This document shows, piece by piece, positions 2,866 to 63,099 of a DNA stretch of 64,000 bases. The notes beneath the pieces are model-generated. The model was not told where the DNA came from and searched no databases. It saw only the letters and a list, made by a program, of their open reading frames with translations. The first letter of the stretch is position 1. Each line of letters opens with the position of its first letter. Source of the stretch: Pelagomonas calceolata (lineage: Eukaryota; Sar; Pelagophyceae; Pelagomonadales; Pelagomonadaceae). The translations under genes were made by a program, and so were the position numbers. Location: positions 372,001-436,000 of the forward strand of contig CAKKNE010000003.1 in the NCBI GenBank assembly GCA_918797485.1. The letters run 5' to 3'.

Positions 2866-2890
2866 GCTAGTGCCTTTACAGGCCGCTAGC
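2866..2890 (-). promoter_or_regulatory. Oriented upstream element, copy 1
   Basis: Read on the minus strand it is GCTAGCGGCC then TGTAAAGGCACTAGC. It lies 115 bp before the ATG at 2750 and points at that gene. It has the shared terminal GCTAG/CTAGC inverted repeat and the TGTAA..CACTAGC core. It belongs to a 12-copy family in this window, interpreted as a core promoter or 5'-leader element. Confidence 0.6.
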
Positions 2891-2967
2891 GTTTGGGTCG
2901 CAACGTGTCTGCGGGCGTAAATAGAAACGACGTGTCTGTGTTCTTAACAACAGCAAAAATTAAACAA

Positions 2968-4071
2968 CTACAACTTGCGCCGCCCGAACCATCCACTCCC
3001 GGCCCGCTCGCGTTTCTCGGGCGGAAGCGTGGGCTGCATGTGCGGGACCCTAGATCTGCGCAACTGCGTCTCGCGCATGCCGTGCGCGACTCTCCGCGCT
3101 TCGTCGCACCACCTGAGCCGTGTCCCGCCTTGTATAAGCGCGTCGAGCCGCGCCTCGCACGTCCGCAAGCGCGGCAGGCAGTTGAGCGTCGTGCGCACGC
3201 GCGGACTGACGGTCACGTTCGACGCTCGCCGGTAGTTCCCTAAAAAGTTCAGGGCCTCGCCGTACACGTGCGGCCCCGCGCCGAGAAATTCCGTCACTTC
3301 GTTCAAGATTGTCGGTCGCTTCCCTTCGTCCCGCAAATCCTCGGACTTGATCAGTATAAATCTATCCGCGGGAAAGAACGCTAGCCACCGCTCCAGCTTG
3401 TCGATATAACAGTTCTCCTGCAGCAGCTCCTGAAGCTTACTCGGCATCGTATTGTCGCCCCGCCGCAACGAGGCCTGGAATCGCGCAAGCTTCGCTGCGC
3501 TGTTGGGGTTGCTCATGAAGCGATCCGCCGGCGACTTAATCAACACGACCAGCTTCAATTCGGGTAGGCGCGAACGCAGCCACGCGATCGTTCTATCTGA
3601 TGCCGGCACGCCCATGTCGCCGCCCAGTAGCGGCGTCGCGTCGAAGGTGATGTCCTTTTCCGGCTTATCTTTGTAGATAGGGAATTGCTTCGCGTAGGCC
3701 TTGACGTGGCATTTCGGGGATGTGTTCGGGCCGTGCTGCAAATCACAAAACTCGGGCCGGCTGAAGTAGAAGTGCTCCTTTCTGGTGCCGAAGGTGAGGC
3801 GCGGGTGGCTCCTCAGGTATCTCGCCAGTGACGTGGTGCCGCACCTTCCGAAACCGATGATGAGGAAGCTCGGCGCGCAGTAGCGCAGCGCTCTCAAGCG
3901 TCGCTTCTTCGGCTCGTCGTGGCAGCGCGGGCCGTAGTCTCGCGGTTCGGCTCCGAGCTCCGCCGTGAGTGGTGTCGTCGGGACGCGCACGCGTGCTGGG
4001 TCGAGGCGCAGAGTGTGCTGGGCTGTGGCTACTGCTGCGAGGAGTAGTGCGCTCGGCCTTGGTCGTGGCAT
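2968..4071 (-). CDS. Sulfotransferase-family protein, Golgi/secretory type
   Basis: A 367-residue protein starting at the ATG at 4071 (MPRPRPSALLLAAVATAQ), which gives a signal peptide or signal anchor. The open frame extends 19 codons upstream, but that start would put a basic, non-hydrophobic leader before it. The PAPS 5'-phosphosulfate loop is seen as FLIIGFGRCGTTSLARYL and the 3'-phosphate site as KLVVLIKSPADRFMSN. These are in the right order and spacing for the carbohydrate sulfotransferase (Sulfotransfer) fold. A predicted role is transfer of sulfate from PAPS to a glycan in the Golgi lumen; the acceptor cannot be told from sequence. Length is normal for the family. Confidence 0.85.
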   Translation of the reverse strand: MPRPRPSALLLAAVATAQHTLRLDPARVRVPTTPLTAELGAEPRDYGPRCHDEPKKRRLRALRYCAPSFLIIGFGRCGTTSLARYLRSHPRLTFGTRKEHFYFSRPEFCDLQHGPNTSPKCHVKAYAKQFPIYKDKPEKDITFDATPLLGGDMGVPASDRTIAWLRSRLPELKLVVLIKSPADRFMSNPNSAAKLARFQASLRRGDNTMPSKLQELLQENCYIDKLERWLAFFPADRFILIKSEDLRDEGKRPTILNEVTEFLGAGPHVYGEALNFLGNYRRASNVTVSPRVRTTLNCLPRLRTCEARLDALIQGGTRLRWCDEARRVAHGMRETQLRRSRVPHMQPTLPPEKRERAGSGWFGRRKL

Positions 4072-4605
4072 GGCGCAGCGGCGACGGCGTGCAACTGCGA
4101 CGGAATGCTGCTGCTGTGAAAGCAGCACTCTAGGCCTCAGAGGACAGCTTTCACGCTGTTGGAAGCACTGCTGCGTGAAGCATTTGTTCGATCTCGATGG
4201 CTGTCGGCCTCTGCTACCTTAAATGCGACCATTTTAGGCCGCAAATGCTAAAAGACCGTCTTGCGGCTAAAAAAACACTGCCTGGCCGAAAAACTCTAAA
4301 ACGGGTTTTATGAGCTTCAATAAGAGTTCGCTTACTGCTACCACGGTAAGTAGGGGGCGTCCGCGACGCTGCGACGACTCGTTTTGAGCAATGAGAAAGC
4401 GGCAAAACCCGAGCGGATCCTAGGCCTTCCCAAACAGCGGACGCCCAAAGACTCCCAGGGCGTACGTCTTGCCAGTCAAAAATGCTAAGGTAGCACCCTC
4501 TCACACGGCTCTTGCTGTCGTTGCGCTTTGAACTGCGAAAAACGCACGGACGAAGCCGGAAATAAGGGCTTTTATCGTCAAAACGAAAACGCCCCTGCCC
4601 GCGCG
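4072..4605. other. Intergenic region between divergent genes
   Basis: About 530 bp between the sulfotransferase and the disordered protein at 4606. A variant of the GACGC-CATC-GACGC core (read on + as GCGGCGACGGCGTG) sits at about 4078-4091, immediately 5' of the sulfotransferase start. A short imperfect inverted repeat (TGTGAAAGC at about 4116 / GCTTTCACG at about 4147) lies nearby. No copy of the GTAAGACACTAGC element and no further gene are visible. Confidence 0.4.
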
Positions 4606-5895: not shown

Positions 5896-5975
5896 TGTCA
5901 TCAGGCGGCCCCAATTCTTGACCTGTTCATACGAACCACGACCCTTCCCGTCCCGGACGCAAAAAACGCGGGACC

Positions 5976-6285: not shown

Positions 6286-8403
6286 TTACCCGCATCTAAA
6301 CGCAGGGCAGCAGCTGCTGGAAGTGTGAAACCCGTCTGCGCTCGTCCAGGTATCCGTGGTTCCTTGGCAGCAGCCAGTCGTGACTTCAAAAGTATTGCCG
6401 TGCTTACGCGCCAAGTGATCGTCCCAGCAAAAAGGAATAGGAATATAACCGAACATGAGGATAACCACGCCCTTGGATTGGTAGGAATTGCTGTCATGAG
6501 GTATGATGTTTTCGCATGCCAAAGGCGCAAATGGAATGCACGGAAAGATGGTACAAAAGCATCCGGCGAACGACCGCGCGTCGGGGAAAGCATGGCTTGG
6601 AGGACTCGAATGGCCCGGCTGGGCGGTGGTCGCCGCCGCGCGCGCGCCCGGCGTGCCGCAGCCTGAACAGGCCGGGTGGGGGAAATTCCCGCCGCAGACC
6701 CGGCACGCGGAGCGCGGCGGCGGCGCCGCGGGTCCACTCCCCGTGTACCGGCGAATCAGCGATTCGGATTTGCCTCGGGAGATCCCCCCGTCGTCGTAGA
6801 GGATGTCGTACAAGCGGCCGCCGTTAACGGCTGTGATCTTGGCGGGGAACCACTGGTTGCTCCTAGTCGACGTCCGCGCCTCGACGCGCTGGCCAACGTG
6901 GAATGCCGCTCGCATGTGTTCCAACGTTGCGGCGCGGGCCCGCTCCGCTGCCGCTTCCCTCGCGCGGGCGGCCTCGCGGCGCGCCGCCTCGTCTCGCGCG
7001 GCGTCGGCGGAAGGCCTTGCCGAGGCCGGCGCCCCAGTGTGCGGCGTCGATACCCACCGGCGAATCCGCGATTCAGCGACGCGTGCCTCGGACTCCCCGT
7101 CGTCGTATAGGATGTCGTACAAGCGATTGCGCCCAAATGGCGGAGTGGCTGTGATCTTGCCGGTGAACCACTGGTTGCCGCCGCGGCACCGCACCTCGAC
7201 GCGCTGGTTAAACGCGAATGCGGCATTGTAGGATGGGCGCTCTCTCGCTGCCGCGTTTCCCGTCGGCCTCGCCGGGGCCGGCGCGGTTCCGCCTTGGACA
7301 TTGACAACCGCCTGCTCGATGTGTATCTCGTGACCGCCGCCGCCGCCCACGCGGTAGCCGAATTGCACGCGACGCCCGCGGAGCGAAAACGGCAGTTGGA
7401 CCCCCAAGCGGGTGATTGCATGCGGGGCTTCGTTCCCAGAGAGGGGCTGCCACGTGCCATAGTATGGCGTGGCGCCAGTGGTACGCGCGAACACCATGCC
7501 CTTCCGATTGCCCCAGCCTTGATCGTGCCACTGGCACGTGAGACCGGTCGCGCCCTCAATTTCACCGCCCCACGAGGAGATGGCGTCAGTACTCAACCTG
7601 TCGTGCACGTCCCTCAGACGGACGGAGTTGGGGCGCTCTCTCGCTGCCGCTTCCCTCGCGCGGGCGGCCTCGCGGCGCGCCGCCTCGTCGCGCTCCCTCG
7701 CGCGGGCGGCCTCGCGGCGCGCCGCCTCGTCGCGCGCGGCGCGGAGCTCCGCGCGGGCCCGTTCCGCCTCGCGCCGCGACCGCTCGACGGCCTCCGCGCG
7801 CGCGGCCGCCGCGTCTCGCGCGGCGTCGGCGGACGGCCTTGCCGGGGCCGCCGCGGATTGCTCCGCCGCCGAGACGGGGGTTCGACAGACAGGGCAGGAC
7901 CGGTGCTCCGGGAGCCACCGCGCGAGGCACGCGCGGTGGAAGACGTGCGCGCAGGGCAGCCGCTGGTCGCCGCCCCGGATAGTCTCCTGGCAGATGACGC
8001 ACTGAACTTCCTCAGCCCTTGCTGCCGCCGCCTCGCGCTGGCGCTCGCGCTCCTCGGCCGCCTCCCGCCGCGACCGCTCGACGGCCTCGCGCCGCGCCGC
8101 AGCGTCCTCCGCCTCCGCGTGCCGCTGCCGCGTCGCGTCGCGGTCCTGCGCCTCCGAGGCCCTTGCCTCTTCCGCAGGGCGAGGAGCAGCGCCGACACTT
8201 TGTCCATCGACGAGCAGGGCGCCGCCCGGTATGCGCCCGAAGCATCCCTCGCAGAGGGCGTGGCCGCAGGGCAGGGCCACGACGGGTTCCGCCGTCTCTA
8301 AGCAGACGGGACAGTGGGCCGATGCGAAGACTCTGTTCCCACAGGCGCGCCGTGGAGGCTGCGTGCGGCAGATGGGGCAGGCGAGGCGTACAAGTCGTTC
8401 CAT
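6286..8403 (-). CDS. RING-finger / Tudor-like multidomain protein, paralogue A
   Basis: A 705-residue protein. I start it at the ATG at 8403 (MERLVRLACPICR) because the neighbouring paralogue begins at the matching point; the frame is open to 8598. Order of modules: Cys-rich start; RING-HC (CPVCLETAEPV...CGHALCEGCF); Ala/Arg/Glu coiled coil; RING-H2 (CVICQETIRGGDQRLPC...CPVCRTPV); a second coil; a beta-rich module (WGGEIEGATGL...WHDQGWGNRKG); a Tudor-like module (RLYDILYDDGESEARV); a coil; a second Tudor-like module; a zinc-ribbon-like CRVCGGNFPHPACSGCG; and a Cys-rich hydrophobic tail. It is probably a ubiquitin ligase scaffold; substrate and location are unknown. Tandem paralogue of 9042-11204. 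Confidence 0.75.
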   Translation of the reverse strand: MERLVRLACPICRTQPPRRACGNRVFASAHCPVCLETAEPVVALPCGHALCEGCFGRIPGGALLVDGQSVGAAPRPAEEARASEAQDRDATRQRHAEAEDAAARREAVERSRREAAEERERQREAAAARAEEVQCVICQETIRGGDQRLPCAHVFHRACLARWLPEHRSCPVCRTPVSAAEQSAAAPARPSADAARDAAAARAEAVERSRREAERARAELRAARDEAARREAARARERDEAARREAARAREAAARERPNSVRLRDVHDRLSTDAISSWGGEIEGATGLTCQWHDQGWGNRKGMVFARTTGATPYYGTWQPLSGNEAPHAITRLGVQLPFSLRGRRVQFGYRVGGGGGHEIHIEQAVVNVQGGTAPAPARPTGNAAARERPSYNAAFAFNQRVEVRCRGGNQWFTGKITATPPFGRNRLYDILYDDGESEARVAESRIRRWVSTPHTGAPASARPSADAARDEAARREAARAREAAAERARAATLEHMRAAFHVGQRVEARTSTRSNQWFPAKITAVNGGRLYDILYDDGGISRGKSESLIRRYTGSGPAAPPPRSACRVCGGNFPHPACSGCGTPGARAAATTAQPGHSSPPSHAFPDARSFAGCFCTIFPCIPFAPLACENIIPHDSNSYQSKGVVILMFGYIPIPFCWDDHLARKHGNTFEVTTGCCQGTTDTWTSADGFHTSSSCCPAFRCG

Positions 8404-9041: not shown

Positions 9042-11204
9042 TCAGCAGACCTTCATGCTGCAAGCCAGCCCGTTGCAGGCGCAGTCGCTCGAATCGTACT
9101 GGTCCACGTCCTGCGGTTCCCCGACCTTGTAAAAGCCGTTGGTGCCGGGATGACGGATGCGGTGTTCCTCAAAGGGCCAGAATACTGGGCTGAGGATGAG
9201 GCCCGCGTGCTTGAGCGAGTTGGGCCCCGTGGCTTCCTTGCTGAAGATGGCTGTAGCGCCGAACGGGAAGCACATGCACACCCAGCAGCCCGCGATCTCG
9301 TCCGTCGAGATCAGGCCGCCCGGCGGGCTATGGCTTGGAGGACTCGAATGGCCCGGCTGGGCGGTGGTCGCCGCCGCGCGCGCTCCCGGCGTGCCGCAGC
9401 CTGAACAGGCTGGGTGGGGGAAATTCCCGCCGCAGACCCGGCACGCGGTGGTCGGCGCCACGCGCGCGGCGGCCCTTGCGCGCTCAAGGCGCGCCGCCTC
9501 AAGGCGCGCCGCCTCGTCTCGCCGGGCCCGCTCCGCTGCCGCTTCCCTCGCGCGGGCGGCCTCGCGGCGCGCCGCCTCGTCTCGCGCGGCGTCGCGGTTA
9601 TGCTCTTCGTGTTGCGCTTGCAGCCGCGCATAGAGAGCTGCGTTTGGATCACTCGCTGCCGCGTTTCCCGTCGGCCTCGCCGGGGCCGGCGCGGTTCCGC
9701 CTTGGACATTGACAATCGCCTGCACGATGTGTATCTCGTGACCGCCGCCGACGCCGCTGCCGCCCACGCGGTAGCCGAATTGCACGCGACGCCCGCGGAG
9801 CGAAAACGGCAGTTGGACCCCCAAGCGGGTGATTGCATGCGGGGCTTCGTTCCCAGAGAGGGGCTGCCACGTGCCATAGTATGGCGTGCCGCCAGTGGTA
9901 CGCGCGAACACCATGCCCTTCCGATTGCCCCAGCCTTGGTCGTGCCACTGGCACGTGAGACCGGTCGCGCCTTCAATTTCACCGCCCCACGAAGAAATGG
10001 CGTTGGTACTCAAAGTGTCGTGCACGTCCCTCAGACTGACGGAGTTGGGGCGCTCTCTCGCTGCCGCTTGCACGTGATGGGCTGCAAGCCTCAGGGATTC
10101 AACTCCGCGGAGATATGCGTCTTGCGCGGCGTCGGCGCTGCCCCGCTCCATCGGCCTCGCCGAGGTCGGCGCCCCAGTGTGCGGCGTCGATACCCACCGG
10201 CGAATCAGCGATTCAGCGACGCGTGCCTCGGACTCCCCGTCGTCGTATAGGATGTTGTACAGCTTGTTATTGTAGCCGCCGCGAACGGCTGTGATCTTGC
10301 CGGTGAACCACTGGTTGCCGCCGCGGCACCGCACCTCGACGCGCTGGTTAACCGCGAATGCGGCTCGCGCGCGCTCGCGGCGCGCCGCCTCGTCTCGCCG
10401 GGCCCGCTCCGCTGCCGCTTCCCTCGCGCGGGCGGCCTCGCGGCGCGCCGCCTCGTCGCGCTCCCTCGCGGCGCGGGCGGCCTCGCGGCGCGCCGCCTCG
10501 TCGCGCTCCCTCGCGCGGGCGGCCTCGCGGCGCGCCGCCTCGTCGCGCTCCCTCGCGCGGGCGGCCTCGCGGCGCACCGCCTCGTCGCGTGCGGCGCGGA
10601 GCTCCGCGCGGGCCCGCTCCGCCTCGGCTCGCGCGGCGTCGGCGCGGCCCCGCTCCGGGGCCGGCGCGGATTCCGCCGAGACGGGGGTTCGACAGACAGG
10701 GCAGGACCGGTGCGCCGGGAGCCACCGCTGCAGGCACGCGCGGTGGAAGACGTGCGCGCAGGGCAGCCGCTGGTCGCCACCCCGGATCGGTTCCTGGCAG
10801 ATGACGCACTGAACCGCCTCAGCCCTTGATGCCGCCGCCTCGCGCTGGCGCTCGCGCTCCTCGGTCTCCTCCCGCCGGGACCGCTCGACGGCCTCGCGCC
10901 GCGCCGCCGCGTCCTCCGCCTCCGCGTGCTGCTGCCGCGTCGCGTCGCGGTCCTGCGCCTCCGAGGCCCTCGCGTCTTCCGCAGGGCGAGGAGCAGCGCC
11001 GACACTTTGTCCATCGACGAGCTGGGCGCCGCCCGGTATGCGCCCGAAGCATCCCTCGCAGAGGGCGTGGCCGCAGGGCAGGGCCACGACGGGTTCCGCC
11101 GTCTCTAAGCAGACGGGACAATGGGCCGATGCGAAGACTCTGTTCCCACAGGCGCGCCGCGGGGGCCGCGTGCGGCAGATGGGGCAGGCGAGACGGCCTG
11201 CCAT
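9042..11204 (-). CDS. RING-finger / Tudor-like multidomain protein, paralogue B
   Basis: A 720-residue protein from MAGRLACPICR. It shares RING-HC, coil, RING-H2 and long Ala/Arg/Glu coil with paralogue A at near identity. Then the order changes: here one Tudor-like module (KLYNILYDDGESEARV) precedes the beta-rich WGGEIEGATGL module, and the second Tudor-like module of A is absent. The coil is encoded by a repeated unit of about 42 bp (10378-10600), with DEAARREAARARER repeated four times. The protein ends with the same zinc ribbon but a different Cys-rich tail (GCWVCMCFPFG ... CACNGLACSMKVC). Predicted role: ubiquitin ligase-type scaffold. The divergent KDEL receptor lies upstream; element copy 2 faces that gene, not this one. 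Confidence 0.75.
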   Translation of the reverse strand: MAGRLACPICRTRPPRRACGNRVFASAHCPVCLETAEPVVALPCGHALCEGCFGRIPGGAQLVDGQSVGAAPRPAEDARASEAQDRDATRQQHAEAEDAAARREAVERSRREETEERERQREAAASRAEAVQCVICQEPIRGGDQRLPCAHVFHRACLQRWLPAHRSCPVCRTPVSAESAPAPERGRADAARAEAERARAELRAARDEAVRREAARARERDEAARREAARARERDEAARREAARAARERDEAARREAARAREAAAERARRDEAARRERARAAFAVNQRVEVRCRGGNQWFTGKITAVRGGYNNKLYNILYDDGESEARVAESLIRRWVSTPHTGAPTSARPMERGSADAAQDAYLRGVESLRLAAHHVQAAARERPNSVSLRDVHDTLSTNAISSWGGEIEGATGLTCQWHDQGWGNRKGMVFARTTGGTPYYGTWQPLSGNEAPHAITRLGVQLPFSLRGRRVQFGYRVGGSGVGGGHEIHIVQAIVNVQGGTAPAPARPTGNAAASDPNAALYARLQAQHEEHNRDAARDEAARREAARAREAAAERARRDEAARLEAARLERARAAARVAPTTACRVCGGNFPHPACSGCGTPGARAAATTAQPGHSSPPSHSPPGGLISTDEIAGCWVCMCFPFGATAIFSKEATGPNSLKHAGLILSPVFWPFEEHRIRHPGTNGFYKVGEPQDVDQYDSSDCACNGLACSMKVC

Positions 11205-11453: not shown

Positions 11454-11477
11454 GCTAGCGGCTGGTAAGACACTAGC
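11454..11477 (+). promoter_or_regulatory. Oriented upstream element, copy 2
   Basis: Reads GCTAGCGGCTG then GTAAGACACTAGC on the plus strand, 220 bp before the KDEL receptor ATG at 11697. It has intact GCTAG/CTAGC ends. Of the divergent pair (RING protein and KDEL receptor), only the KDEL receptor side is matched. Confidence 0.65.
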
Positions 11478-13848: not shown

Positions 13849-13872
13849 TCTAGTGTCTTACATGCCGCTAGC
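13849..13872 (-). promoter_or_regulatory. Oriented upstream element, copy 3
   Basis: Minus strand: GCTAGCGGCA then TGTAAGACACTAGA, 109 bp before the exostosin-like gene start at 13740. The divergent alpha-galactosidase (start 13936) has no copy facing it. Confidence 0.65.
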
Positions 13873-15398: not shown

Positions 15399-18300
15399 CT
15401 AGCGCGGATCTTCGTCGGCGCCACCGGTCTCGTCGGTCTCGTCGGTCGGCAAAGGTGTCGGCGACGGCGCGCGATAACGCCAACTATTGCGGTAAACGTC
15501 GCGGACATAGCCCCGCAAGCCACCTGGCGACTGGGGCCCAGCATAGCGCTCGAGCCCTTCGAGCACAGCCGCGTCCGGCGCCGGCGCGCGCCGTCTCGTT
15601 TGGGGAGGCGTGGATGGTGTGGGGTTCGCATAGTTCTGGAGCGCGGAAACTTGGTCAGGCGACGGTGAGCGGTCTGGCATCGGCGTGGCGTACGCTCGTA
15701 AAGCGGCTTCCTCGTCCGGCGAGGGCGTCCGGGACGGCTCCACCGGACCGGCTGCGCCCTCCGCGTAAGACGTGAGAGCCGCGACCTCGGCGTCCTCGGG
15801 CCCGGGGGACGGCACCGAGGCGAGGAGCCCCGCGAGATGGGCCCTTTCGCTCGAACTGACGCCGCCCGAGCGCTCGAGGCGTTGCTCGCCGCGCGCGCGG
15901 GAGCGTGCCCGGCTGCGGGAGCGGCTGCGGGAGCGACGGCCACGGGGCCGCGTCGGTGGCGCGGGAGGCTCGTCGACGGCCGCAACATCCCCGACAATCT
16001 CCCCAGTCGGCGTGCCCTCGAGAGCGCTGGCCATGGCTTCGATGTCGTCCGCAGTCGACCGACGCGGCCGCACGGTGTCGCCGAAGCGGCGGGCGAGGTC
16101 GCCCACCGACGGTGCCGGTTCCTCGGGCGCCGCTTCCTCTTTCACGCGGTAGATCGCCGCCTCGTCGTCGCGGGTCAGCGGATCGTCGTTCTTGGCCTCC
16201 GCGACGCCTTCGTCGTCATCGTCGTCGTCGTCTTCGATCGTCAAGGTGACGGCCTCGGCCTTCGCCTCGGCCTTCGCCTCGGCGACGCCTTCGTCGTCGT
16301 CGTCCTCGACGGTGAGAGTCACGGCGTCGGCCTTTGCCTCCTCGTTGGCGTCGTAGAGGCCGCGGACGGGGCTCAGGGCGGGGTGCACCGGTGGTGGATC
16401 TCCTCGTCTGTAGCGATCGGCCAAGGTCCGCGTCCGCGCCATCACTCTTGGAGGTAACGCCTGCAGGGCACTCGAGATCTCGCCAAAGTCCCGCGCAGCC
16501 GACCGGCCGCGCTCCACCCGTGCCGTGGCCCGGTCCTCGGACCGCGCGCGCCGCTGCCGCGTCGCCGGCGAGGGGTCTCGCATGCGCGCGTGGCGCCGGC
16601 GCCGCGCCTCGTTCTCCGCGCGGAGCGCCTCCGTCGACCGCCGGGCGGCCTCGGCCGCCTGCCGCAGGTTCGACGCCGCCTCGGTCGCGGCGACGGCGGC
16701 GGCCGTCGTCGCCGACGCGGCGAAGGAGCCCGGCGGCGGCGGCGGCACGTCGGCCAGCTTGCGTTGTAACGCGTCCATGTGCGGGTGCGCGGGTGCCGGC
16801 GCTTCGAAGCGGCGGCGGAGGTCGTCCACCGACGGCGACGACGGTTCGGCGGGCGGCGGCGGCGGCTCGATCGGTTCGGCCTCGGGCGGCGGCGGTGGTT
16901 CGAGGGGCGGCCGCGGCTTGATCTTCTTCTTCTTCGGCGGCGGCGCGGGCTGATCGACCGGAACGGGCGTCTCCAGCGCGCGCATGAGCGCGTCCTCGAC
17001 CGACGGTGACGACGGTTCGGGGTCGGGCAGCGGCGGCTCGGTCGGCGGACGGGGCTTGATCTTCTTCTTCTTGGGTGGCACAGGCTCATCGAGCGCGCGC
17101 ATGAGCCCATCTAAATCATCCCGGTCGTCGATCTGGACGTCGATGATCGTATCGTCCGTCGTGTCGTCCACGCAGCACGCGCGGGGCTTCCACTGCTTCT
17201 TCGTCGGCCTGTCCGCCTTGTGGGGCTTCGGGTGCTTGTTGCGATACGCCCGGCGCCACATGTCGATGGCCAAGCCAATCGTGGCCAGGACCACTAAACC
17301 ATTAATCGCCGCGCAGAGCCTCGCGGCATTGTCTGAAGGGTCCTCCTGATACGCCCGGAACTTGACCAAGAAATGCAACACCGCAAACCCACCGGACGAC
17401 AGCGCCGCCAACACGCAAAATCTAGAATCGGGAAATCCGATCTTCTCGACGCGCTTGCCGTGCCGCCCGTGGTGCTTCATGATCGTCCCGTGCACGACCC
17501 TACCGTCGCGCGCCGGGTGGTGGAAGGCCACGCGCTGCCCCTCCTTCAAGCGATGGTGCGCCTTGACGGCGTGCACGAGCCTCCGACCCATCGCCGAGGC
17601 CTGGTGTTCCAATCCTCTGCCTAGCCGCGACGCCTGGTGCTCCAACCCATGAGCCATGTGCGACAGCCCGTCCATGAGCCCGTGGCCGACGTGGCCGAGG
17701 TGCGACGCCTGATGCTCCAGGTCGTGATGCAGGTCGTGGCCGAGCGTGTGGTGGGGGTGCGTGACGCGAAACGACAGTTCCTTCGCCGTCGTTTCGACGC
17801 GGTGCTCCGACGCGTGCTCCCGCCCCTCGAGCGCGCTCATCAGCGCGTGCGCGTCGTGCGCGTGCACCAGAATGTGCGGGTCCCTCCGCAGTTTCTCCGC
17901 CGCGATGACGGCGTGCCCGGCCGCCCGGAAGCGGGGGAGCAGGCTCCGCGACTGGTCCGGCGTTACCGGTGGCGATTCGACTTTGAGGTCGCGCGTGCTC
18001 GCCGCGCGGACCTTCTGCACGATGTCGCAGCGGTGGAGTTCGTGATCTTCATGGATGTCGCGCGTGTACTTCTTCACGATGGCCTCCAGGAGCTCGGGCT
18101 CGTGGACGCCCTTGGCCTTGTACTTGTCGATCAGAGCGGGCGCTTCTTTCACTTTCTCCGGGTTATGTTTCGCATAAAAAGCGTGGATGTCCTCCCTCGC
18201 TTCTCGATGCCGCTCGGCCCAGGCGTGCGTCCGCGCCAGCATTCTCGCCGACAAATGCGGTGACTCCTCCGCCGCGGGTGGCGCGCCCGCCGCGAAGCCC

Positions 18301-21300
18301 CCGACGAAGTGGTGGCCGTCGGTGTCGTCGTAGACCAGATCAAAGGTCTCGTCGTCGTCGGAGTCCTCGGGTCCTAGACCACCGATGAAGTGGTGGTCCG
18401 GCGACGGCGGCGCGCCTTTGTCGTCGCCGTCGTCGTCGTCCATGCGGTGGGACCGCAGGAAGCCGTGGCGGACCTTCCTCCACACAGTCCCATCATCACA
18501 AACGACGTCGTAGCGCTGGTGGCCCTCGGACGCCTTCCACGGCAGCACGACGCCGATCTCGATTTTTCCTAAGATCGCACAGGTCCAGATCATTATCTTC
18601 GTGAAGGGATAGGCCGCGAAGGGCCGGTCGTCCCAGACGTCCGGGCGGCAGTAGGCTAAGTATATGAGGATCAGCAAATTCACCAAAGCGTGCGCGATCC
18701 ACAGATAGATGGACAAGCGGAGGGCCCGCTCCGCCCGTGACGAACTCGTCAGGCGCCGCCGCTCCTCCTCAAGGACCTCCTCGCCCTCGTTCGCCCGGCG
18801 CCGTCTATCACATATGAAGTAGAGGTCGCCGCCCGTGTCCGCCATGCCCCCCGCCAATACGAATTGGGCGGCGAGCGGGAACCCAACTAACCCGGCGTGG
18901 CTCGCCTTGACGCCGGCGGCGACCGCGACGGCCGCGCCGCCGAACGCCGCGGGCGCGACGCTCGCGACGGAGCACTCGCCGCCCGGCACGGCCGCCAGGA
19001 GCGGCTGGTCTTCTTGTATGGGCTCGGCGACGGCTTCCGGTGACGGCGGGAGCGTTGGTACGGGCGACGGCATCTTCGAGGGCCGCGCCGTTGTCGGTAG
19101 GGGACTCAACGAAGGTGATGGTGAAGGTACATGCGAAGGATGGTGACTTGGCGCGGGCGACGCCGTCGGCGCCGGACTTATGGAAGGTTGCGGACTAGGA
19201 TAAGGCGAGACGCTCGGCGCGGCCGTCGTCGGCGCGGCCGTCGTCGGCACGTGCGTCGGGTCCCGCCAGCACCCGTTCAGCGTCTGTGTGACTTCATCAG
19301 AAGGCTCCGAGGCGCCCGCGTTGTTCTCGGCCACGACCGTCAGCGTCACCGTCGAAAAGCAGGCCACGTTCTCCTCGAGCGCGAAACTGAGCGTTTCCGC
19401 GGTGCGCCGCCGCCAGCCCTTCTTCGCGTCCCACTCTCGTTTTGATCCGTCTTTGTTAAAACCGTCCGTCTCGCCGTGCGTCCGGTTCCGGTTGTGGCGC
19501 TCGCGGTTGCTCGACCGCGCGAGCCGTCTCCTCCTCAACCGCCGGTCGCCCGAGTCCACGGCGACCGCCAACACATCGCCGTCGTACAATAAGTAGGTCG
19601 CCGCCTCGCCCCCATAACCCTCGTCGGTCCAGGCCGTCTCAGAGGTATCTGGGTCCAGGGTAATATTCACCGGCGGGTCCGGCGGATCTAATGTAGTGGG
19701 CTGGATCGTTGGCAGAGGCGAGATCGACGGGAAGGGTGAAGGTTGTGCTGTGGTCGGTGTGGCCGTCGTCGGCATAAATGAGGGGTTGGACGTGGTCGGG
19801 AAAGGGACGGGCTGGAGCGAGGGCGCGACGGTCTTCGTGGCGACGGCCGTTACCGAGCAGACCTCGGTACCTGGCTTAAAGGTCGCGTTCACGAAGGTGG
19901 CCGTCATTACCGTCTCGAAGACCTCGGCGACCTCTATCACACTTCCCGAGCCGCCCGTGTAGACGGGCAGCTCGACGGCCGGGAGGACCACGGTCACGAC
20001 GTACGACGTGATGATTGTAGTGGTATTCGTAGAAAAGCACTGGTCGTCCAGCAGGCGTCTCCTACTGAGCGTCGGCAGGGGCGTGGGCATCGATGAAGGT
20101 ATGATGGTGGGCTGGGGTGTCGGCGCGGCCGTGGGGACCTCGGACGGCATCGATGAAGACGGTATTGATGAAGGCGCGCTCGTCGGCTCGACCGTCGTCG
20201 GCGGCGCCGTCGTCGGCTCCGCGGTGGCCTCCACCGTCGGCGGCGCCGTCGTCGGCATGGACGACGGCGCCGCCGCCGGCGCGACGGTCGGCATGGCCGT
20301 CACATTCATGTCCGCACAGACCATGTGCCCGATGCGGCTGCGCTCGACGCCTAGCAACTCCGCGAGGTAGTCCTCGGCCACCGCGACGCCGTCCGAGAAC
20401 TCGAGGGGGTCGCAGTCGGACGCGTTGGCGCCCGCGGTGGTCGCCGTGGCGTTCGAGAGCCGCGTAGAGGTACGATTCCGCCGCGCCGACCACGAGACGT
20501 CGATGGCGACCGTCGCGATCGTCGGCGCCAGTGAGGCCTCGCGCGTCGGCGGCGACGTCGGTGTCGGCGACGGCAGGAACGACGGCGCGGGCGACGGCGG
20601 GGTCGTCGGCATGGATGTCGGTGTCGGCGACGGCAGGAACGACGGCGCGGGCGACGGCGGGGTCGTCGGCATGGATGACGGCACCGAGGAGGGCACGCCC
20701 GTCGGATACCAGGTATATAGGACGGCGAGCGGCCGCGTCGCGACCACACAGGTCCCGTCGGTGCAAGCCACGTGCACGCCGTAGACGCCGATGTTCGTGC
20801 CGTAGGGCAAGTCAAAGGAGAAGGCGCCGTCGTTCGGCGTCGTCAGCGGGCCGACGATGGTCGCGTCGTCTCGAAAACACGTCACGTCGACGTCGAGGCA
20901 GCTGGTCGCGGGGCCGGTGTAGGTCCACGTGACGGGGCACGGCAAGTCGGCGACGCAATCAAGGTCTGCGGGCTGGGTCAGGAAGCAGCCCGTCGGGGCC
21001 GGCGAGGGCAGTGGCGACGGCGGCGTCGTCGGGACGAACGTGGGCTCGGTTGTTGGTGTGCCGCTCGGCCGTGACGACGGCGGCGTCGTCGGGACGAATG
21101 TGGGCGCGGTTGTTGGTGTGCCGCTCGGCCGCGACGACGGCGGCGTCGTCGGGACGAATGTGGGCGCGTTTGTTGGCGTGCCGCTCGGCCGCGACGACGG
21201 CGGCGTCGTCGGGACGAATGTGGGTGCGGCCGTCGGCGCGCGCGTCGGCGTCGGCGTCGGCACGGACGTCGGGGTGGCCGTCGGGGCGGACGTCGGCATG

Positions 21301-24479: not shown

Positions 24480-24505
24480 GCTAGTGTCTTTACTTGCACG
24501 CTAGC
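24480..24505 (-). promoter_or_regulatory. Oriented upstream element, copy 4
   Basis: Minus strand: GCTAGCGTGCA then AGTAAAGACACTAGC, 242 bp before the giant protein's ATG at 24238. An extra GCTAGC lies beside it at 24466. The divergent AIP1 gene has no copy facing it. Confidence 0.62.
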
Positions 24506-31052: not shown

Positions 31053-32418
31053 ATTTTGGAACGTTACGCGACGCGAGGGCGACCGCTGAGAGTGGGAATA
31101 GCTGGAATAGCTGTAAATGCAGCGCAGGGCTCCCGAATTATCTCAAGTTGTGGAGCGGTTCCGTCGCAGTAATTGATGCCCTCAAACGGCTGGTGAGCAC
31201 AGCGTTCACCGGCAGCAAGGCGCCGCGCAAAATGCTGGCTAGTGTCTTACAGGTCGCTAGCTGGTCCAGCCGTCGGTCAGCGCTGCTCCTCAGCTACAAG
31301 CGCCGACGTCCGCATAGCTGGAGCGCGGAATTAGCCACAAATTATGCTCACGTTGCCAACGGCCCCGTCCCGACAACTGCGCGCACGCGATAAGCAGCAG
31401 TCTGCTAGGCTGCCTGTCAAGCAGAGCTGCTCCGCGGCGTCGTGTGGCACGCGCGGTAGAAAATATCTGCCGCGGACACAGATCGTCGCTGTTGACAGAA
31501 CTGTGGAAGCCGCGGAGTCTCACGGAGCGATGCGCGGCGACGCCTCCGCTCTCGCGGCGCTAGAAGGGCGGAGGGGCGAACAGAGCTACGACACGTTCGT
31601 GACCGCGCCGCGCTAGCCATCCAGCCGATGCAGCGAGCGCCGCCAGCGTGTGTCAGCTCCTGACGCCGACCGCAAGACCAGCCAGGCCCTACGCGCCCGT
31701 CGTTTCCGACAGCCTACGGCCGCCCGGCCGCCTCGGCGACGGCCTCAAGTCGTGCCCTCCGCTCCTGGAGCCCCAAGGCGAAATGTGGTGGCCGAGGTTG
31801 GCCGGTACCCTGCCTGGCGGCGCCAGGCCCTCGAAAGCCGGGCCGGTCCCGCAGCAGTTGCCTGCGCCCTTCGGCGCCGGCCCCAAGGGTTCAGTCCGTG
31901 CTCATAGGACTCAAAGAACCCCGGCGTTGTCAGGATTCAGCGACTGCCTCGCCCCGCGAGGTGGAAGAGCAACCTGGAGCGTGACCGGACGCCTTTTCCA
32001 GCAAACAGTGTTTTCGCGTCGGTATCCGGCACGAACAGACTACGTGGGTTGGCTCCTACAAACGCTGTAACTCCCTGGACTAATTGCTGGCGGCGAGGAA
32101 ATGCACGGAGATCCAACAATGCGACATCAAGCTCGCGGGCACCGCGGACCACTTCGACTCGCCTCGTCGGTTTTTTGCCGTGCGCTGATGCTCAAAATGT
32201 GATCTAGGACTGCTGGCGACGCGCTCCACGACGATGCGAGTTTTACAATTTTCATGCGCCTGCGGCCCTCGCCCCTTAGCCACTCACGAAGTTGGAGCGC
32301 GCCCAGATCGAGCAGGGCCGCGAGGCCTACAAGCGCCTCACGGGCCAGATCTAGATGGCTCGCGGCGACGGCGTCTTTCCCGGGTAACAATTGAACCATT
32401 AGTCACACCATTACTCAA
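31053..32418. other. Intergenic region of 1.4 kb without a supported gene
   Basis: Apart from element copy 5 it has no feature I can support. A plus-strand ORF at 31648-32070 has low-complexity Pro/Arg composition and no domain. A GCGGCGACGGCGTC variant of the introner core lies near 32360, just past the 3' end of the ADP-ribosylglycohydrolase gene. A non-coding transcript or a decayed gene is possible. Confidence 0.4.
31238..31261 (-). promoter_or_regulatory. Oriented upstream element, copy 5
   Basis: Minus strand: GCTAGCGACC then TGTAAGACACTAGC, 186 bp before the ATG at 31052. Perfect terminal repeats. It is one of the closest matches to consensus. Confidence 0.68.
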
Positions 32419-35332: not shown

Positions 35333-35362
35333 GATAGCGGCCTGTACAGGTAAGACACTAGC
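35333..35362 (+). promoter_or_regulatory. Oriented upstream element, copy 6
   Basis: Reads GATAGCGGCC, TGTACAG, GTAAGACACTAGC; the spacer is about five bases longer than usual. It lies 92 bp before the ATG at 35454. Confidence 0.58.
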
Positions 35363-37635: not shown

Positions 37636-37658
37636 GCTAGCGGCCGTGAGACTCTAGC
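37636..37658 (+). promoter_or_regulatory. Oriented upstream element, copy 7 (divergent)
   Basis: Reads GCTAGCGGCC then GTGAGACTCTAGC. The ends are intact, the core has two changes. It is 143 bp before the ATG at 37801. Confidence 0.5.
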
Positions 37659-42177: not shown

Positions 42178-42201
42178 GCTAGCGGCATGTAACACACTAG
42201 C
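42178..42201 (+). promoter_or_regulatory. Oriented upstream element, copy 8
   Basis: Reads GCTAGCGGCA then TGTAACACACTAGC, 173 bp before the proteasome subunit ATG at 42374. The single G-to-C change in the core (TAACACAC) is shared with copy 9. It argues against a simple GTAAGA splice-donor reading. Confidence 0.65.
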
Positions 42202-49380: not shown

Positions 49381-49965
49381 TTAACTTATAACGCTTTCCT
49401 CATCACTCGTCGACTCGCGTGCGTGGACCTCGTACACCCGCGCGACGAGCCCGCCCGCGGCGACCTCAAAACTACTCCGCCAGCCCCGCAGCTCGAAGCC
49501 GACGCAGACCAGGGTCCCGCACCGCAGCTCCCGCTCGAGCTTCTCGCGTAGCTTCGCGCAGCCCTCGCGGAACAGGTAGGCGACGACGACGTCGCCGTCT
49601 TCGAAAATGTTCTCCGATTCGAAGAAGTCGGCCTCGACGAGCGTATGATCCGCGCCGTCCAGGGCCGCCCGGCCCTTCTCAAGTAGTTTCCCGTCGATGT
49701 CGTAGCCGACGAGGCGCCGGCAGTGTTTTCGGGCGGCGACGAGCCACCGGCAGTCGCCGCAGCCCAGGTCCACCAATCGATTGTCTCGCAGCAGGCCGCG
49801 CGCCTCGAGCTCGCGCAGCGTCTTCTCAATCAATTCGGGCGGCGACGGGCTGATCGGCGCGACGAGCTGATGACTGCTCGCACTCTGCTGTTCCGCGAAG
49901 CGCTGCTTAGCTAGCGCGATGAGTGCTGCTTTCGCGCACTTCTTCCGGCTCGAGAGCTCAGCCAT
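49381..49965 (-). CDS. SAM-dependent methyltransferase (FAM173/ATPSCKMT-like)
   Basis: 194 residues. Motif I is LVDLGCGDCRWLVAARKHCRRLVGYDIDGKLL (residues 64-95), followed by LVEADFFESENIFEDGDVVVAYLFREGCAKLREKLERELRCGTLVCVGF. The LIEKTLRELEARGLL helix just before motif I and the short total length resemble the FAM173/ATPSCKMT lysine methyltransferase group, which modifies the mitochondrial ADP/ATP carrier and ATP synthase subunit c. That assignment is tentative, because the DxGxGxxR Rossmann core is shared widely. No targeting peptide is obvious (MAELSSRKKCAKAALIALAKQR is weakly amphipathic). Element copy 9 faces it. Confidence 0.72.
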   Translation of the reverse strand: MAELSSRKKCAKAALIALAKQRFAEQQSASSHQLVAPISPSPPELIEKTLRELEARGLLRDNRLVDLGCGDCRWLVAARKHCRRLVGYDIDGKLLEKGRAALDGADHTLVEADFFESENIFEDGDVVVAYLFREGCAKLREKLERELRCGTLVCVGFELRGWRSSFEVAAGGLVARVYEVHARESTSDEESVIS

Positions 49966-50136
49966 TTTACGCTACCAGCTGCCAATAATCACTGCCTGCA
50001 GCAGGGCTACTCTCCAGTGGCACGAAATCAACGCACGCTTCGCACACCGCCAGGAATGGAAATATTACAATCCTCCGCAGCTCTTGGAGCCTGTGGCACC
50101 GCAGGAATGGCGCTACCGACAAAAAATCGACTGCTT

Positions 50137-50160
50137 GCTAGTGTGTTACAGGACGCTAGG
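50137..50160 (-). promoter_or_regulatory. Oriented upstream element, copy 9
   Basis: Minus strand: CCTAGCGTCC then TGTAACACACTAGC, 172 bp before the methyltransferase ATG at 49965. The rest of the 400-bp divergent gap (to the TFIIIC-like gene at 50364) shows nothing else. Confidence 0.62.
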
Positions 50161-50363
50161 CTCGAGCGCTGTTGATCAACAAACGCCCTGCCCAGCGCGC
50201 CTACGCGTAAGTAGGGACGTTGAGCAGCGCGGTACTGCACCACACTGTTCGTCTGCACGCCGCCCGGTGGCCCCTGGGAGCCGTGAGGACCCGCAACAGG
50301 CAGCCTTGACCACAGCGCGTTCTCGACCGCAGAGCTCGTCGTCCCAGAAAACCAAGCAACGCC

Positions 50364-53300
50364 ATGTCGAGCGTCAACCCCAACGCCGGCAGCGTCTTCG
50401 GCCCGGCCATGGCCGACGTCTGGGGCGTCACTACCAAAAAGCGGAAACGCAAGCAAGCGCAACGGGACGAACGTATTCAATCGGACTACGAAGCTCGACA
50501 CGGCGCTCCGAGAACGAATGCGAAATCGTTGCATCCGGAAGTCGCCGCCGTCGCCGGTGAGGCGCATGGTGCGCTGATCGTCGGGAACAGAGATAGAGCG
50601 ATCCAGCTCTTCGGGGAGGTCGTGCGGCGGGCGCCGGACCACCCCGACGCCTATGCTACCTTATCAGAAGTGTTTGAGGCTCGTTCAGATGAAGGTGACC
50701 TCGAGAAGGCTCTGCAGTTAGCGCTAGTCGCGGCCCACTTGCAGACCGAAGATCCAGAAGGCTGGCGGCGCGTCGCGATCTTAGCCTTGGATTCGAATGA
50801 TGATTCTACAGCAAAAGACGCGTTGGATCGAGTCCTGCGCATGGATCCTTCGGATTGCGCCGCATTAGGTGATCTGGCGCAACTCTTAGGGAGGATGGGC
50901 AAGCATGCCGAAGCTGCGGACCGGTGCGACTCCTTTTTATCTCAGAGAGATGATGTGACGCCGGAAGTCACTTCATTATACTTAGTACTGGCGGAGCACT
51001 GTAGTCAGAGCGAGCGCTACGACGAGGCCAAAAAAGCCCTCAAAAGAGCTCTGGACGATGCGCAAAGATTGGTGTCGAACGGCGACGTCGATGCGCGAGA
51101 GACGAAGGAGCGGGCCGCCGTCGAGTTGGCACGACTGAAACTGCGAGAAAATGATATTGACGGGGCTCGTCAACTACTAGGTGAAGCGTCGGCGAATGAA
51201 CCTTTGGATGTCTCGGTGTTAAGGGGTTGTTGCGACCGCGACGCGTCGAAATGGGCTCCGTTGATCCCGCATTTACGACGCGTTTCCACGGAGATCGGCG
51301 CGGGCAACGAGGCGTCGTGTCGGGCCCACGAGCGCTTAGCAGTTTTGGTGGAGTGCTGCTCATCATGCGCGGGCGACGACCAAGAAGATGTTGTTAGAGC
51401 CTTGTTAGACGGGGCCGCGAGGTGCGCCGCGGCGCGCGGCTCTCTGAAGAGACCGGACGCGGCGCTGTGGCGCCGCAAGGAGTCCGACGCCCACGCGTCG
51501 TTGTCGAACCGCTTTTTGCAGCGCGGTTCCTTGTATGCGGCGTCCCAACGCGCCGAACGCGCTTTGAAAGCCGACGCGACGCATGTCCCGGCGTTGCGGG
51601 CCTTCGTCGAGTGTATTAACAGAGGCGCGTCGGTCCGTCTGGAGGCCGTGGCGCAGCCCTTTGCGCGTTTAGCAAGAAGTACGAAAACCGCATCCAATGA
51701 GTTGGAGGCGTGGGTGGCCTACGCTGCCGCGCTCGAGGCCGCGCTCGAGGTCGCTTCCGGAAACGCGACGTTGTTGGCGATCGCGTCAGCTAGAGTGGCC
51801 ACGAAGTTGCGAAGGGTGGCTACACAACAACCTTTGGCCATCGCCGCCATGACCGTCGCGTGCGGCGAGGACCCCTTACTGGCGTTGAGCGCGGCACTCG
51901 CAAAATGCGGCCGGGACGCCGCCGACGTGTTTCGGAGGGTTGAGAGGTTGTGCAAGACCGACGAGGAAGCTTCTATTGCGGGTACTTTGAAACAGTGCGG
52001 TAATGCTTTAGATTGCACCGACACGGCGGATCGCGTCGTGAGGGCGATGGCCTTCGTAGAAAAGTTAGGGTTTGTTTTATTTGAGGGCGACGAACTTGCT
52101 TCCTTAGTGAGTGCGCGCTCTATGAACATAGAGGACGGTATGAACATGGACCTCGCGCGCGTGACGTTACAAACAGGCAAGGCGCCGCGCGACGCGGCCA
52201 CCGTTGAGACTTTACGGCAAGCTCTGATAAAAGCGGAGGAGCTGGACATGACATCAAGCGTGGAGTGCGTCGACGACGCCCTGTCCGACCTTTGTAGACG
52301 AGTGCAATCGCCGCCGATTACCTCCCTGGTCCAGTCGCGCCAGCGCTGCCAGCCGCGGAAGAGTACAACGCCCATGGAGGAGTCGTCGTCGTCGGACAGT
52401 GATCAAGAACCTGTTCAAAAGCGCCCTCCGTGCATGAAGACCTGCCCCGGGTGTTCCACAAAACTCCACAACTGCGTCAAGACCTGCAACACCTGCGGCA
52501 CGACGTTCGGGAGCAAGCCCCAACGACCGGTGGAATCATCTGATGACGACATGCCGCCGCCGCGCCAGGAGGACTCGTCGTCGTCTTCCGAGGGCGAGGC
52601 CTGCGTGCCGCGAAGCCGCGTCTACTTCGAAAGTTCCTCATCATCATCCTCGTCCGAGGAAGAAATTATCATACGGCCGTCGCGCTTCGGGCGCCAGCGC
52701 CAGAAGACGCAGCGCCTCTCGGACATGATGGGCGGCCGGGGCAAGAGCTACGACGAACCACGGGACATGGCGGGGCGCCGGCTGCCGTCGTCGTCGGAGG
52801 ACGAGTCGTCGTCAGATGATGATAGTGAGCCGCGGCGGAAGCGATACGTGGAGAAGCCCCACCATCGCGCCGGGAAAGCACCTTCCAAGGTCTGCCCGAA
52901 GTGCCAGACGCGCATGCACTCGTGCAAGAAGAAGTGCCCGACGTGCGGCGAGTGCTTTGGCACCGCAAAGGCCGGCGGCGCCCACGCCGAGCGCTGGAAG
53001 CACATCCAGTCGCACGCTTCCGGGAACACCGAGGCCGACGTCATGATCTTGAGAGTGGAGGAGCTGCGCGAGCGGTTGGAATCGCGGGGGCTGTCGTCCG
53101 AGGGCCTGAAGAAGGAGCTGCAGGCGCGGCTGCTCGCCGAGTACCGGAAGCCGCCGGGAGATCCGGCGGCCGACGCGGCGGCGGCCGCGGCCGCGGCCGA
53201 CGCGCGGCGCGCGGCGCCCGCGCCCGCCGCCGGAAGGAAGAAGCCCGCGGCCGGCGGCCCTCGGAAGAAACAAACACCGGCGCCGGCGCCGGTCAGCGGC

Positions 53301-54870: not shown

Positions 54871-54890
54871 GCTAGCTGTAAGACACTAGC
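54871..54890 (+). promoter_or_regulatory. Oriented upstream element, copy 10 (short spacer)
   Basis: Reads GCTAGCTGTAAGACACTAGC without the usual GGNN spacer, 190 bp before the hydrolase ATG at 55080. It is the shortest copy. The divergent thioredoxin gene has none facing it. Confidence 0.65.
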
Positions 54891-55703: not shown

Positions 55704-55731
55704 GTTCTGTTGTTAGTCGTGTGACTCGTGT

Positions 55732-56629: not shown

Positions 56630-56652
56630 CCTAGCGTTCAGTAAGACACTAG
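56630..56652 (+). promoter_or_regulatory. Oriented upstream element, copy 11
   Basis: Reads CCTAGCGTTC then AGTAAGACACTAGA, 193 bp before the HAD-HIT ATG at 56845. Outer bases are slightly degenerate; the GTAAGACACTAG core is intact. Confidence 0.62.
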
Positions 56653-56844
56653 AAACCTAGCAGGTGCGCATTGCGGCAGCCACGCTGTTGGTGGGCTGGT
56701 GCACGGTGAAACTTCGGCATTGTGTCGCCTATAACGCGTCGTTGCGCGTGCACCATCGATTCCGGCTTTAAACCCCTAAGAGCGCTACAACAAGCGGCAA
56801 GCTGAGCTGCGTGAGCACACGGCCGCCTACCTGCACGAGAAATC

Positions 56845-61247: not shown

Positions 61248-61766
61248 TTTTGCTCCTCAGTCTGCACTCAGAGCACTTTATTTATGATTATCAGTCCAGA
61301 GCACGCGGCTTTCGCTGGCTCACGTCTCACGGCTGGCGAGGTTGCTTTCCGAAGCTCAGATCTCTTATGCGTGCCCACACTGTGCTGTACAAGGGCTCTT
61401 TACCGATTCTGGGGAGCTGCTAACTTTTAGAAGCAGGCCCCCCATCGCCAGCGGTACGCCTCCAAGCAGCCGTCGGGAGTCATTCTGAGTCGTACTGCGG
61501 GCCGCAAAATGGCGCAAGGGCGCGCAACAAAGAAAGTGCGGGTTTCAGCCCCGTCCCGCGGCCGGATCCCGTCGCGGCCCCGCCGTCCGGCTAGCTGTAT
61601 CATCAGAGTAGGCTATCGTGAGGGGGCGCATACAAGGTCCGCTCAAGCTCCAGGACCCCGCTGAGCGCCCGAAGGAGCGCGGCCCTACGGCGTGAATCCC
61701 GACGTCGACGTCACCCGGTCCCAGGGCAAAGAATAAACACATCACTTATGTCAAGAGGGAGTCGGA
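61248..61766. other. Intergenic region, no feature seen
   Basis: About 520 bp between the acyl-CoA synthetase start and the cathepsin stop, both on the minus strand. No element copy, core motif or ORF of note. The acyl-CoA synthetase promoter should be here. Confidence 0.35.
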
Positions 61767-62933
61767 TCAGGAGGCCTCGCGCCGGCGCAGCATCAAATAA
61801 GCAACAAAAAACGCGACGACGGCGACCAGGAGCACCAACGCGGCGCGCTCCGGCTCGACGGGGCCGACGGCGGGCTCCCAGACCCAGGAGACTGGAGTGG
61901 AGACGAGCTCGATCGCGTCGCCCTCATCATCGGATGCCGCCTGATAATTGACGCCCGGCGCGCCCCAGCCGCCGACGTCGGCAAAAGTGCACGAACTCTC
62001 GATCATCGAGTCGTCGACGCCCCGCAGCACCCGCCCGAAGCCGGCCTCGCCCCAGTACTCGCCCCACGAGTTGCGGATCTCCCAGAACTCCGTGCCTTCA
62101 TGTACGCCCCAGCCGACGACTTCGACCACATGATCCGTGTCGTTCGCGCCGCGGCCGTTCGGCGGGTTCGCCTCGGCAATACCAGAAGTGTAGGTGAGTA
62201 GGGGCTCCGCGTCCAGGTTGCACGTCACGGGCCCGGCGCGCACGATTTCCCGTTGAATAGCTTCGGAGGCGGCCTTGGCGCCTACTTCATTCGACCCGGG
62301 CAGCTTGCCGTGCTCTGCCACCACTATGCGCGGGTACGGCGACGTCGCGCAAACGCCGCCGTTGTCGCAGGCGTGCTCATCCGACGCATCGCCGGGCACG
62401 GCCCAGCACGCGTGCTCTCCATCATGAGTAGGCATGCAGTTGCGGCAGATCGTGTCGCCACGACACCCGAGGCCGTCCTCGGCCTGGTAGGGGAAGCACG
62501 TCGCCGAGGGGTAGCCGCCAAAATTCTTGGCCCACGCGTAGGCGGACGTCGCCGAGCCGCCCTCGTGGCAGTTGCCGGCCTTGCCCCAGCCAGAATCTTC
62601 GCCGCCGCAGTTCAGCAGAACTTGCACGGCGACTAGTAGATCGGGCCCTGGATACGCGTCGTCCTTGACGCGCGCCCGAGCAATTTTTGTTCTATCTTGC
62701 AACGCGTGCGCGGTCCCAAAGGCGAAGCAGGCGCCGCAGTATTTGGGCACGTGCTGGTTCCACGACGGCGCCAGGAGACCGTGGTCGCGCCACGAGAAGC
62801 TTTTGGGGAGCTTTGTCGTTTTTGCGTCCGGTGGGGTCGTCGTGGCGGCCAAATCTTCGTGGGCGCGGACGTTCGCGAGGCGCGCTTGTGCCGTCGCGAG
62901 GAGTGCGAGGAGCAGCATTTGGGTGGCGCGCAT
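61767..62933 (-). CDS. Cathepsin X/Z-like cysteine protease with C-terminal membrane anchor
   Basis: 388 residues with a signal peptide (MRATQMLLLALLATAQA). Papain family C1: LPKSFSWRDHG, NQHVPKYCGACFAFGTAHALQDR (oxyanion Gln 60 and catalytic Cys 69; FAF replaces the usual WAF), the His in DTDHVVEVVGWG near 267, and the Asn in EIRNSWGEYWGEAGFGRV near 289. The NQH..YCGaC spacing and short propeptide are those of cathepsin X. Residues 362-383 form a TM helix (AALVLLVAVVAFFVAYLML) followed by RRREAS. Most cathepsin X proteins lack it, so this one is predicted to be a type I membrane protein of lysosome or vacuole, or of the surface. It is divergent to the MYND gene. Confidence 0.88.
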   Translation of the reverse strand: MRATQMLLLALLATAQARLANVRAHEDLAATTTPPDAKTTKLPKSFSWRDHGLLAPSWNQHVPKYCGACFAFGTAHALQDRTKIARARVKDDAYPGPDLLVAVQVLLNCGGEDSGWGKAGNCHEGGSATSAYAWAKNFGGYPSATCFPYQAEDGLGCRGDTICRNCMPTHDGEHACWAVPGDASDEHACDNGGVCATSPYPRIVVAEHGKLPGSNEVGAKAASEAIQREIVRAGPVTCNLDAEPLLTYTSGIAEANPPNGRGANDTDHVVEVVGWGVHEGTEFWEIRNSWGEYWGEAGFGRVLRGVDDSMIESSCTFADVGGWGAPGVNYQAASDDEGDAIELVSTPVSWVWEPAVGPVEPERAALVLLVAVVAFFVAYLMLRRREAS

Positions 62934-63074
62934 GCTTCCTGGTGTATAGGTGCCTTGCAGCCTCGATTTCTGCAGCGAGCGCGGCGACGGCGTAAGCGTG
63001 GACGTATGCTTGCTTCACGTAGGCGCTGGTTGCGTCTCAGGGCCGGTCTCACTCCTTTTGTGCTAGCCACTAAA

Positions 63075-63099
63075 GCTAGCGGCCTTTAAAGACACTAGA
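63075..63099 (+). promoter_or_regulatory. Oriented upstream element, copy 12
   Basis: Reads GCTAGCGGCC then TTTAAAGACACTAGA, 60 bp before the ATG at 63159 - the shortest distance of the family. A second GCTAGC lies at 63062. Confidence 0.6.

Follow-up and report, generated by a model that had tools for sequence, protein, structure and literature searches.

A two-armed element repeated across the Pelagomonas calceolata genome: a putative orientation-independent promoter site near gene starts

The pelagophyte alga Pelagomonas calceolata carries a bipartite DNA element of about 27 bp, which we analysed in a stretch of 64,000 nucleotides (contig CAKKNE010000003.1 of assembly GCA_918797485.1, positions 372,001 to 436,000 of the forward strand; "the window" in the following) and in the whole genome. 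The element is real and is repeated genome-wide. Judged from its sequence and position, some 200 bp before start codons, it is probably an orientation-independent site recognised by a general promoter factor. We favour a general factor because the element is two-armed, is indifferent to orientation, lies about 200 bp from starts and stands beside genes of many functions.

The assembly of strain RCC100 comprises 32.4 Mb in six nuclear contigs plus plastid and mitochondrion with 63.6% GC, according to excerpts of the genome paper (PMC9481584); 32,445,274 bases in 8 contigs were searched here, and the window has 64.1% GC. A first-pass annotation had described twelve copies in the window and proposed a genome-wide search for the core. 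The exact core GTAAGACACTAG was found 2,364 times (1,178 and 1,186 on the two strands) versus once (1 + 0) for the reversed control. The two-armed pattern CTAGCG-N3-13-TAANNCACTAG matched 2,834 times and the full 27-mer with two free bases 194 times, versus 0 matches of either in the control. In the window itself all twelve copies are present. Allowing the core at most 2 mismatches gave 12 matches there, of which 11 are elements and one, at 38041, is not; the copy at 2866 has a core with 3 mismatches and was located through its arms. In 100 shuffles of the window the same search gave a mean of 1.46 and a maximum of 6 matches.

The consensus GCTAGCGGCATGTAAGACACTAGCAAG was derived from 45 cores with at most 1 mismatch in a 344 kb sample, consisting of the window, C1:300001-500000 and C4:1000001-1080000. 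It has the bipartite, asymmetric form GCTAGCGG-N2-TGTAAGACACTAGCAAG. Its 26 positions hold about 34 bits, summed by hand, a value that is inflated because near-exact cores were chosen, and the flanks hold at most 0.26 bits per position (profiled 15–20 bp outside the consensus). The distance between the two CTAG motifs was determined for 50 sample copies (45 strict, 1 composite and 4 with two mismatches): it is 18 bp in 32, 16–17 bp in 11, 14 bp in 2 and 19–20 bp in 2, and in the other 3 the left CTAG was not in range. Another, small class of CTAG pairs, CTAGTGTR..GACAYACTAG, has 31 matches genome-wide versus 0 in the control.

Placement was measured against 198 genes called in the 344 kb as single open reading frames (ORFs) without introns. 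With no limit on distance, 19 of the 46 strict or composite copies lie between divergent genes, 13 have a gene start ahead and a gene end behind, 11 have the reverse arrangement, 1 lies between two gene ends and 2 fall inside called ORFs. Of the intergenic regions that are 40 bp or longer, 61 are divergent and 20 of these hold a copy; for the tandem class the figures are 23 of 70, and for the convergent class 2 of 38. The median distance to the nearest start codon is 207 bp. Of 43 copies, 79% are 120–280 bp from that codon and none is closer than 60 bp; for random points placed in these regions the corresponding values are 30% and 18%.

The 43 of 131 start-bearing intergenic regions that contain the element are flanked by mixed Pfam families, with functions such as an endoplasmic reticulum (ER) lumen receptor, a proteasome subunit, a kinase, an MFS transporter, hydrolases and a homoserine dehydrogenase. 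A regulatory transcription factor that controls a particular regulon could also occupy a two-armed, dyad-like site in such a fraction of regions. We consider this unlikely, since there are thousands of copies and the neighbouring genes appear functionally unrelated, as judged by their Pfam families.

Orientation was counted for 44 copies, i.e., the 46 strict or composite matches minus the 2 inside called ORFs. A further 18 "relaxed" matches, among them the window copies at 2866, 24480, 37636 and 63075, were excluded from these counts; 14 of these carry 3 mismatches, and the majority of that group are probably not elements. Within 400 bp, 14 copies had a start ahead but not behind (past the left arm), 11 had one behind but not ahead, 14 had starts to both sides, and the other 5 had none (p = 0.69). 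The ratio of only-ahead to only-behind copies was 5:0 in the window, 4:5 in the C1 segment and 5:6 in the C4 segment. Of the 11 genes whose start is the sole one and lies behind the element, 8 were scanned against Pfam and 6 matched (kinase, MFS, PP2C, ankyrin, GDSL lipase, FHA/KH). The clearest of these cases (locus L021) has the start of a PP2C gene 209 bp behind the element and the end of an EF-hand gene 62 bp ahead. By position alone, the element is thus found in either orientation, as is expected of a general regulatory factor site.

The twelve copies of the window and the starts next to them are as follows.

2866..2890 (-): copy GCTAGCGGCCTGTAAAGGCACTAGC; ahead, start codon 2750(-) at 115 bp, of an open frame with an fn3 domain that runs off the window
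11454..11477 (+): copy; ahead, 11697(+) at 219 bp, ER lumen protein retaining receptor
13849..13872 (-): copy between divergent genes; ahead, 13740(-) at 108 bp, Exostosin match below the Pfam cut-off; behind, 13936(+) at 63 bp, alpha-galactosidase
24480..24505 (-): copy between divergent starts; ahead, 24238(-) at 241 bp, ORF 23069-24238 without Pfam match; behind, 24704(+) at 198 bp, WD40
31238..31261 (-): copy; ahead, ORF 31052(-) at 185 bp, without Pfam match
35333..35362 (+): variant copy with extra bases before GTAAG (..CCTGTACAGGTAAGACACTAGC) and the degenerate left arm GATAGC; ahead, gene 35454(+) at 91 bp
37636..37658 (+): degenerate copy (GTGAGACTCTAG); ahead, 106-aa ORF 37801(+) at 142 bp, without Pfam match
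42178..42201 (+): copy; ahead, proteasome subunit gene 42374(+) at 172 bp
50137..50160 (-): copy between divergent genes; ahead, 49965(-) at 171 bp, methyltransferase domain; behind, 50364(+) at 203 bp, TPR and SAP
54871..54890 (+): short copy with arms 14 bp apart, lacking the CGG of the left arm; ahead, 55080(+) at 189 bp, alpha/beta hydrolase
56630..56653 (+): copy between divergent genes; ahead, 56845(+) at 191 bp, HAD hydrolase; behind, 56454(-) at 175 bp, AP2 domain
63075..63099 (+): copy without GT (TTTAAAGACACTAG) between divergent genes; ahead, 63159(+) at 59 bp, open frame with MYND and RING-variant; behind, 62933(-) at 141 bp, papain-family protease

The formula given for these copies in the first-pass annotation does not describe all of them, e.g., not 54871, which lacks the left-arm CGG, or 35333, with its degenerate left arm and extra bases before GTAAG. 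All copies had been called intergenic, and the called genes indeed contain none of the 12, although uncalled ORFs overlap some of them, e.g., 49919-50560(+), 50028-50567(-) and 63063-63494(-). A start ahead of every copy was likewise recovered (12 of 12, at 59–241 bp), four of these starts (for 2866, 63075, 24480 and 37636) resting on uncalled ORFs. The conclusion that one orientation relative to a gene is the rule did not hold: 5 of the 12 copies (13849, 24480, 50137, 56630 and 63075) have a second start 63–203 bp behind them, and outside the window one-sided starts within 400 bp of strict copies were 9 ahead versus 11 behind.

Upstream ATGs in 5′ leaders are usually selected against. For 191 called genes, CAT outnumbers out-of-frame ATG in the upstream sequence as far as about 175 bp before the start codon. 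We compared ATG and CAT, read outward from the element, around all exact cores of the genome, a test that is independent of gene calls and counts matches, not sites. In the near bin ahead (about 2–34 bp) the ATG:CAT ratio was 510:720, and in the near bin behind, just past the left arm, it was 347:661. The far bin ahead (about 62–94 bp) gave 478:973 and the bin at matching distance behind 442:1,005 (p < 1e-8 for each of the four bins). No difference between the two sides was found for the far bins (p = 0.17), and on both sides the deficit of outward ATG is already seen within about 30 bp of the element. In the 344 kb sample, ATG and CAT were counted around 48 copies (the 44 and 4 relaxed matches with 2 mismatches) on sides where the next gene edge is at most 400 bp away. 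Where a side faces a start, the out-of-frame counts were 16:40 ahead of the element and 8:39 behind it, in total 24:79; where it faces a gene end, the count over all frames was 25:29 (p = 0.004), which argues that the ATG deficit belongs to starts. An outward deficit on both sides is expected if 5′ leaders extend both ways, and the counts are most simply explained by leaders that point away from the element on either side and begin near it.

These data bear on the interpretation offered first, a core promoter or 5′-leader element. The tie to gene starts is supported, a fixed orientation is not. An oriented core promoter element (of the INR/FPR or TATA type) or a leader element aimed at one gene would account for the window, where every copy has a start ahead and none has a start only behind, and for the tight distance to start codons near 200 bp. 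In the 344 kb sample a fixed orientation was not found, with 14 copies only ahead and 11 only behind of 44, and the far-bin ATG deficit is similar on both sides. By comparison, forward:reverse ratios of 1.8–5.9 are given for oomycete core elements in the available portion of the published analysis (PMC3599244). Because starts lie ahead about as often as behind and the deficit of outward ATGs is two-sided, we regard an oriented element as improbable.

Several points weigh against a general, orientation-independent site. The gene calls behind the placement and orientation counts are our own single-ORF calls without introns. About two thirds of the start-bearing regions have no element, called ORFs contain 2 of the 46 strict copies, and 5 of the 44 lack a start in the 400 bp on either side. 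In the window the skew becomes 7:0 when the hand-found copies 2866 and 37636 are included, with no copy having a start only behind; we take this skew as sampling, since the genome-wide ATG/CAT test favours no ahead side. CAT itself becomes more frequent with distance from the element (near to far bin: 720 to 973 ahead, 661 to 1,005 behind), so that the far-bin ratio reflects a gain of CAT as well as a loss of ATG. Finally, the near ATG/CAT ratio is 0.71 ahead and 0.52 behind (p = 0.0007); the deficit is weaker ahead, and the two sides are therefore not fully alike. A subfamily, CTAGGGATG, with GGATG directly after the element, made up 10 of 100 among the matches listed (e.g., G000:C1:2455608) and may contribute to the weaker near deficit ahead. 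About 30 bp past the element, a similar stretch (about TTTGAGTATCGTTCGGTTCGCTAATGGTC.AAAGAGATCA) was seen at several of the matches listed, e.g., G000:C1:3827716-3827798.

Introner elements and miniature inverted-repeat transposable elements (MITEs) are recognised by terminal inverted repeats and by a body, some 200 bp long, that is repeated from copy to copy. No repeated body of this kind was seen in the profiled flanks (15–20 bp outside the consensus, at most 0.26 bits per position), where conservation ends at about 27 bp, and an introner or MITE was rejected as a candidate. Intron lengths in this genome do peak near 210 bp, and the excerpted text of the genome paper likens the peak to introner elements (PMC9481584). 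A splice donor in the 5′ untranslated region had been named as a weaker alternative in the first-pass annotation; GTAAGA fits a donor, and three variants read CAG/GTAAG. This alternative was not borne out, since the element occurs in both orientations, outward ATGs are depleted right beside it and copy 63075 has no GT. A splice donor or an introner remnant is thus scarcely credible. The three variants are the window copy 35333 and the copies at offsets 3982 and 42677 of the C4 sample, in which extra bases create TACAG/GTAAG, a splice-site-like junction within the element.

The consensus can also be folded into a hairpin with a 5-bp outer stem (−7 kcal/mol), which would fit a structured RNA within the 5′ leader. 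Z-scores of five folded sequences ranged from −1.4 to −2.8, the outer bases form a standard pair in 27 of 47 copies without covariation (odds 1.16, p = 1.0), and the orientation is not fixed. A leader hairpin is very unlikely, and a structured leader RNA was rejected as a candidate for want of a covarying stem. Scans of the window with Rfam (gathering threshold) and for tRNAs gave no match.

Outside this genome, three patterns had no match in viral contigs, in a collection that may exclude records close to this genome. One pattern was searched in bacterial and archaeal genomes and gave a single match, an exact element at 2146-2168 of contig CAJWEZ010000013.1 (L029) from a metagenome-assembled genome labelled Spirochaeta. 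In this contig bacterial genes flank a GC-rich stretch, and it looks chimeric and of doubtful origin. The string GTAAGACACTAG occurs in no paper of the literature library searched. No such motif appeared among the matches listed (titles and beginnings of abstracts) for pelagophyte or Aureococcus genome, introner, promoter and regulatory literature, or for literature on stramenopile core promoters and algal promoters. A word search of PMC13284251 gave no hits.

Other motifs and repeats were noticed in the same sequences. A second upstream motif, ACGCCATCG, is present in 25 regions of the 344 kb sample versus 0.81 expected, and its 8-mer CGCCATCG lies upstream of starts 23 times in sense and 8 times in antisense orientation. 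A third, around GGGCAGCC / GGCTGCCC, is represented by two 9-mers in 23 and 24 regions of the sample versus 1.2 expected, and was found at 33 places in one orientation and 24 in the other. The window also contains a 2,595-aa ORF at 15399-23186 (-), in which 12-base repeats form long arrays at about 19,050-22,320; repeats from these families also occur in the frame 23069-24238, which overlaps it. Two similar large ORFs, at 6286-8403 and 9042-11204 (-), share 300-base blocks with 94–96% identity.

If the element is a site of a general promoter factor, a sequence-specific protein would contact both CTAG-flanked arms, 18 bp or about 1.7 helical turns apart, and once bound would keep the element free of nucleosomes. 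Transcription would then begin a short distance away, on one side or both. As a start would be permitted on either side, a single copy could serve a divergent gene pair. More tentatively, pelagophytes may use a lineage-specific factor on a long bipartite site that clears nucleosomes and positions initiation outward both ways, replacing oriented core motifs at about one third of promoters. A long, common and orientation-free promoter site offers a handle for finding the factor and for annotating starts and divergent pairs.

Among known promoter motifs, the oomycete elements INR+FPR and DPEP resemble the algal element in being stramenopile motifs near gene starts in a fraction of the genes. They are orientation-biased and most common no more than 50–100 nt from the start codon, according to the part of the study at hand (PMC3599244), whereas the algal element is unbiased in our sample and lies near 200 bp. 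The CCAAT box is an upstream element that was counted in both orientations in the oomycete study, as far as the excerpt goes (PMC3599244); the algal consensus lacks CCAAT and has two CTAG arms instead. The early promoter motif of an Aureococcus virus, given as AAAAATGA in the portion of the source available (PMC5917014), is unrelated to the algal element. The nearest working analogy may be the sites of yeast general regulatory factors such as Abf1 and Reb1, the algal element being known here from sequence and position. Abf1/Reb1-type sites are orientation-independent and are used by divergent genes. The algal element is longer and holds more information than the yeast sites (about 34 bits, inflated by the selection of cores), and to our knowledge its sequence is unrelated to them. 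The yeast sites (Abf1, Reb1, Cbf1) are described, in the excerpted text of PMC2897762, as short sites associated with promoter chromatin across the genome and as differing in repertoire between lineages. The element thus allows testing whether general promoter factors turn over among stramenopile lineages as they do in yeasts.

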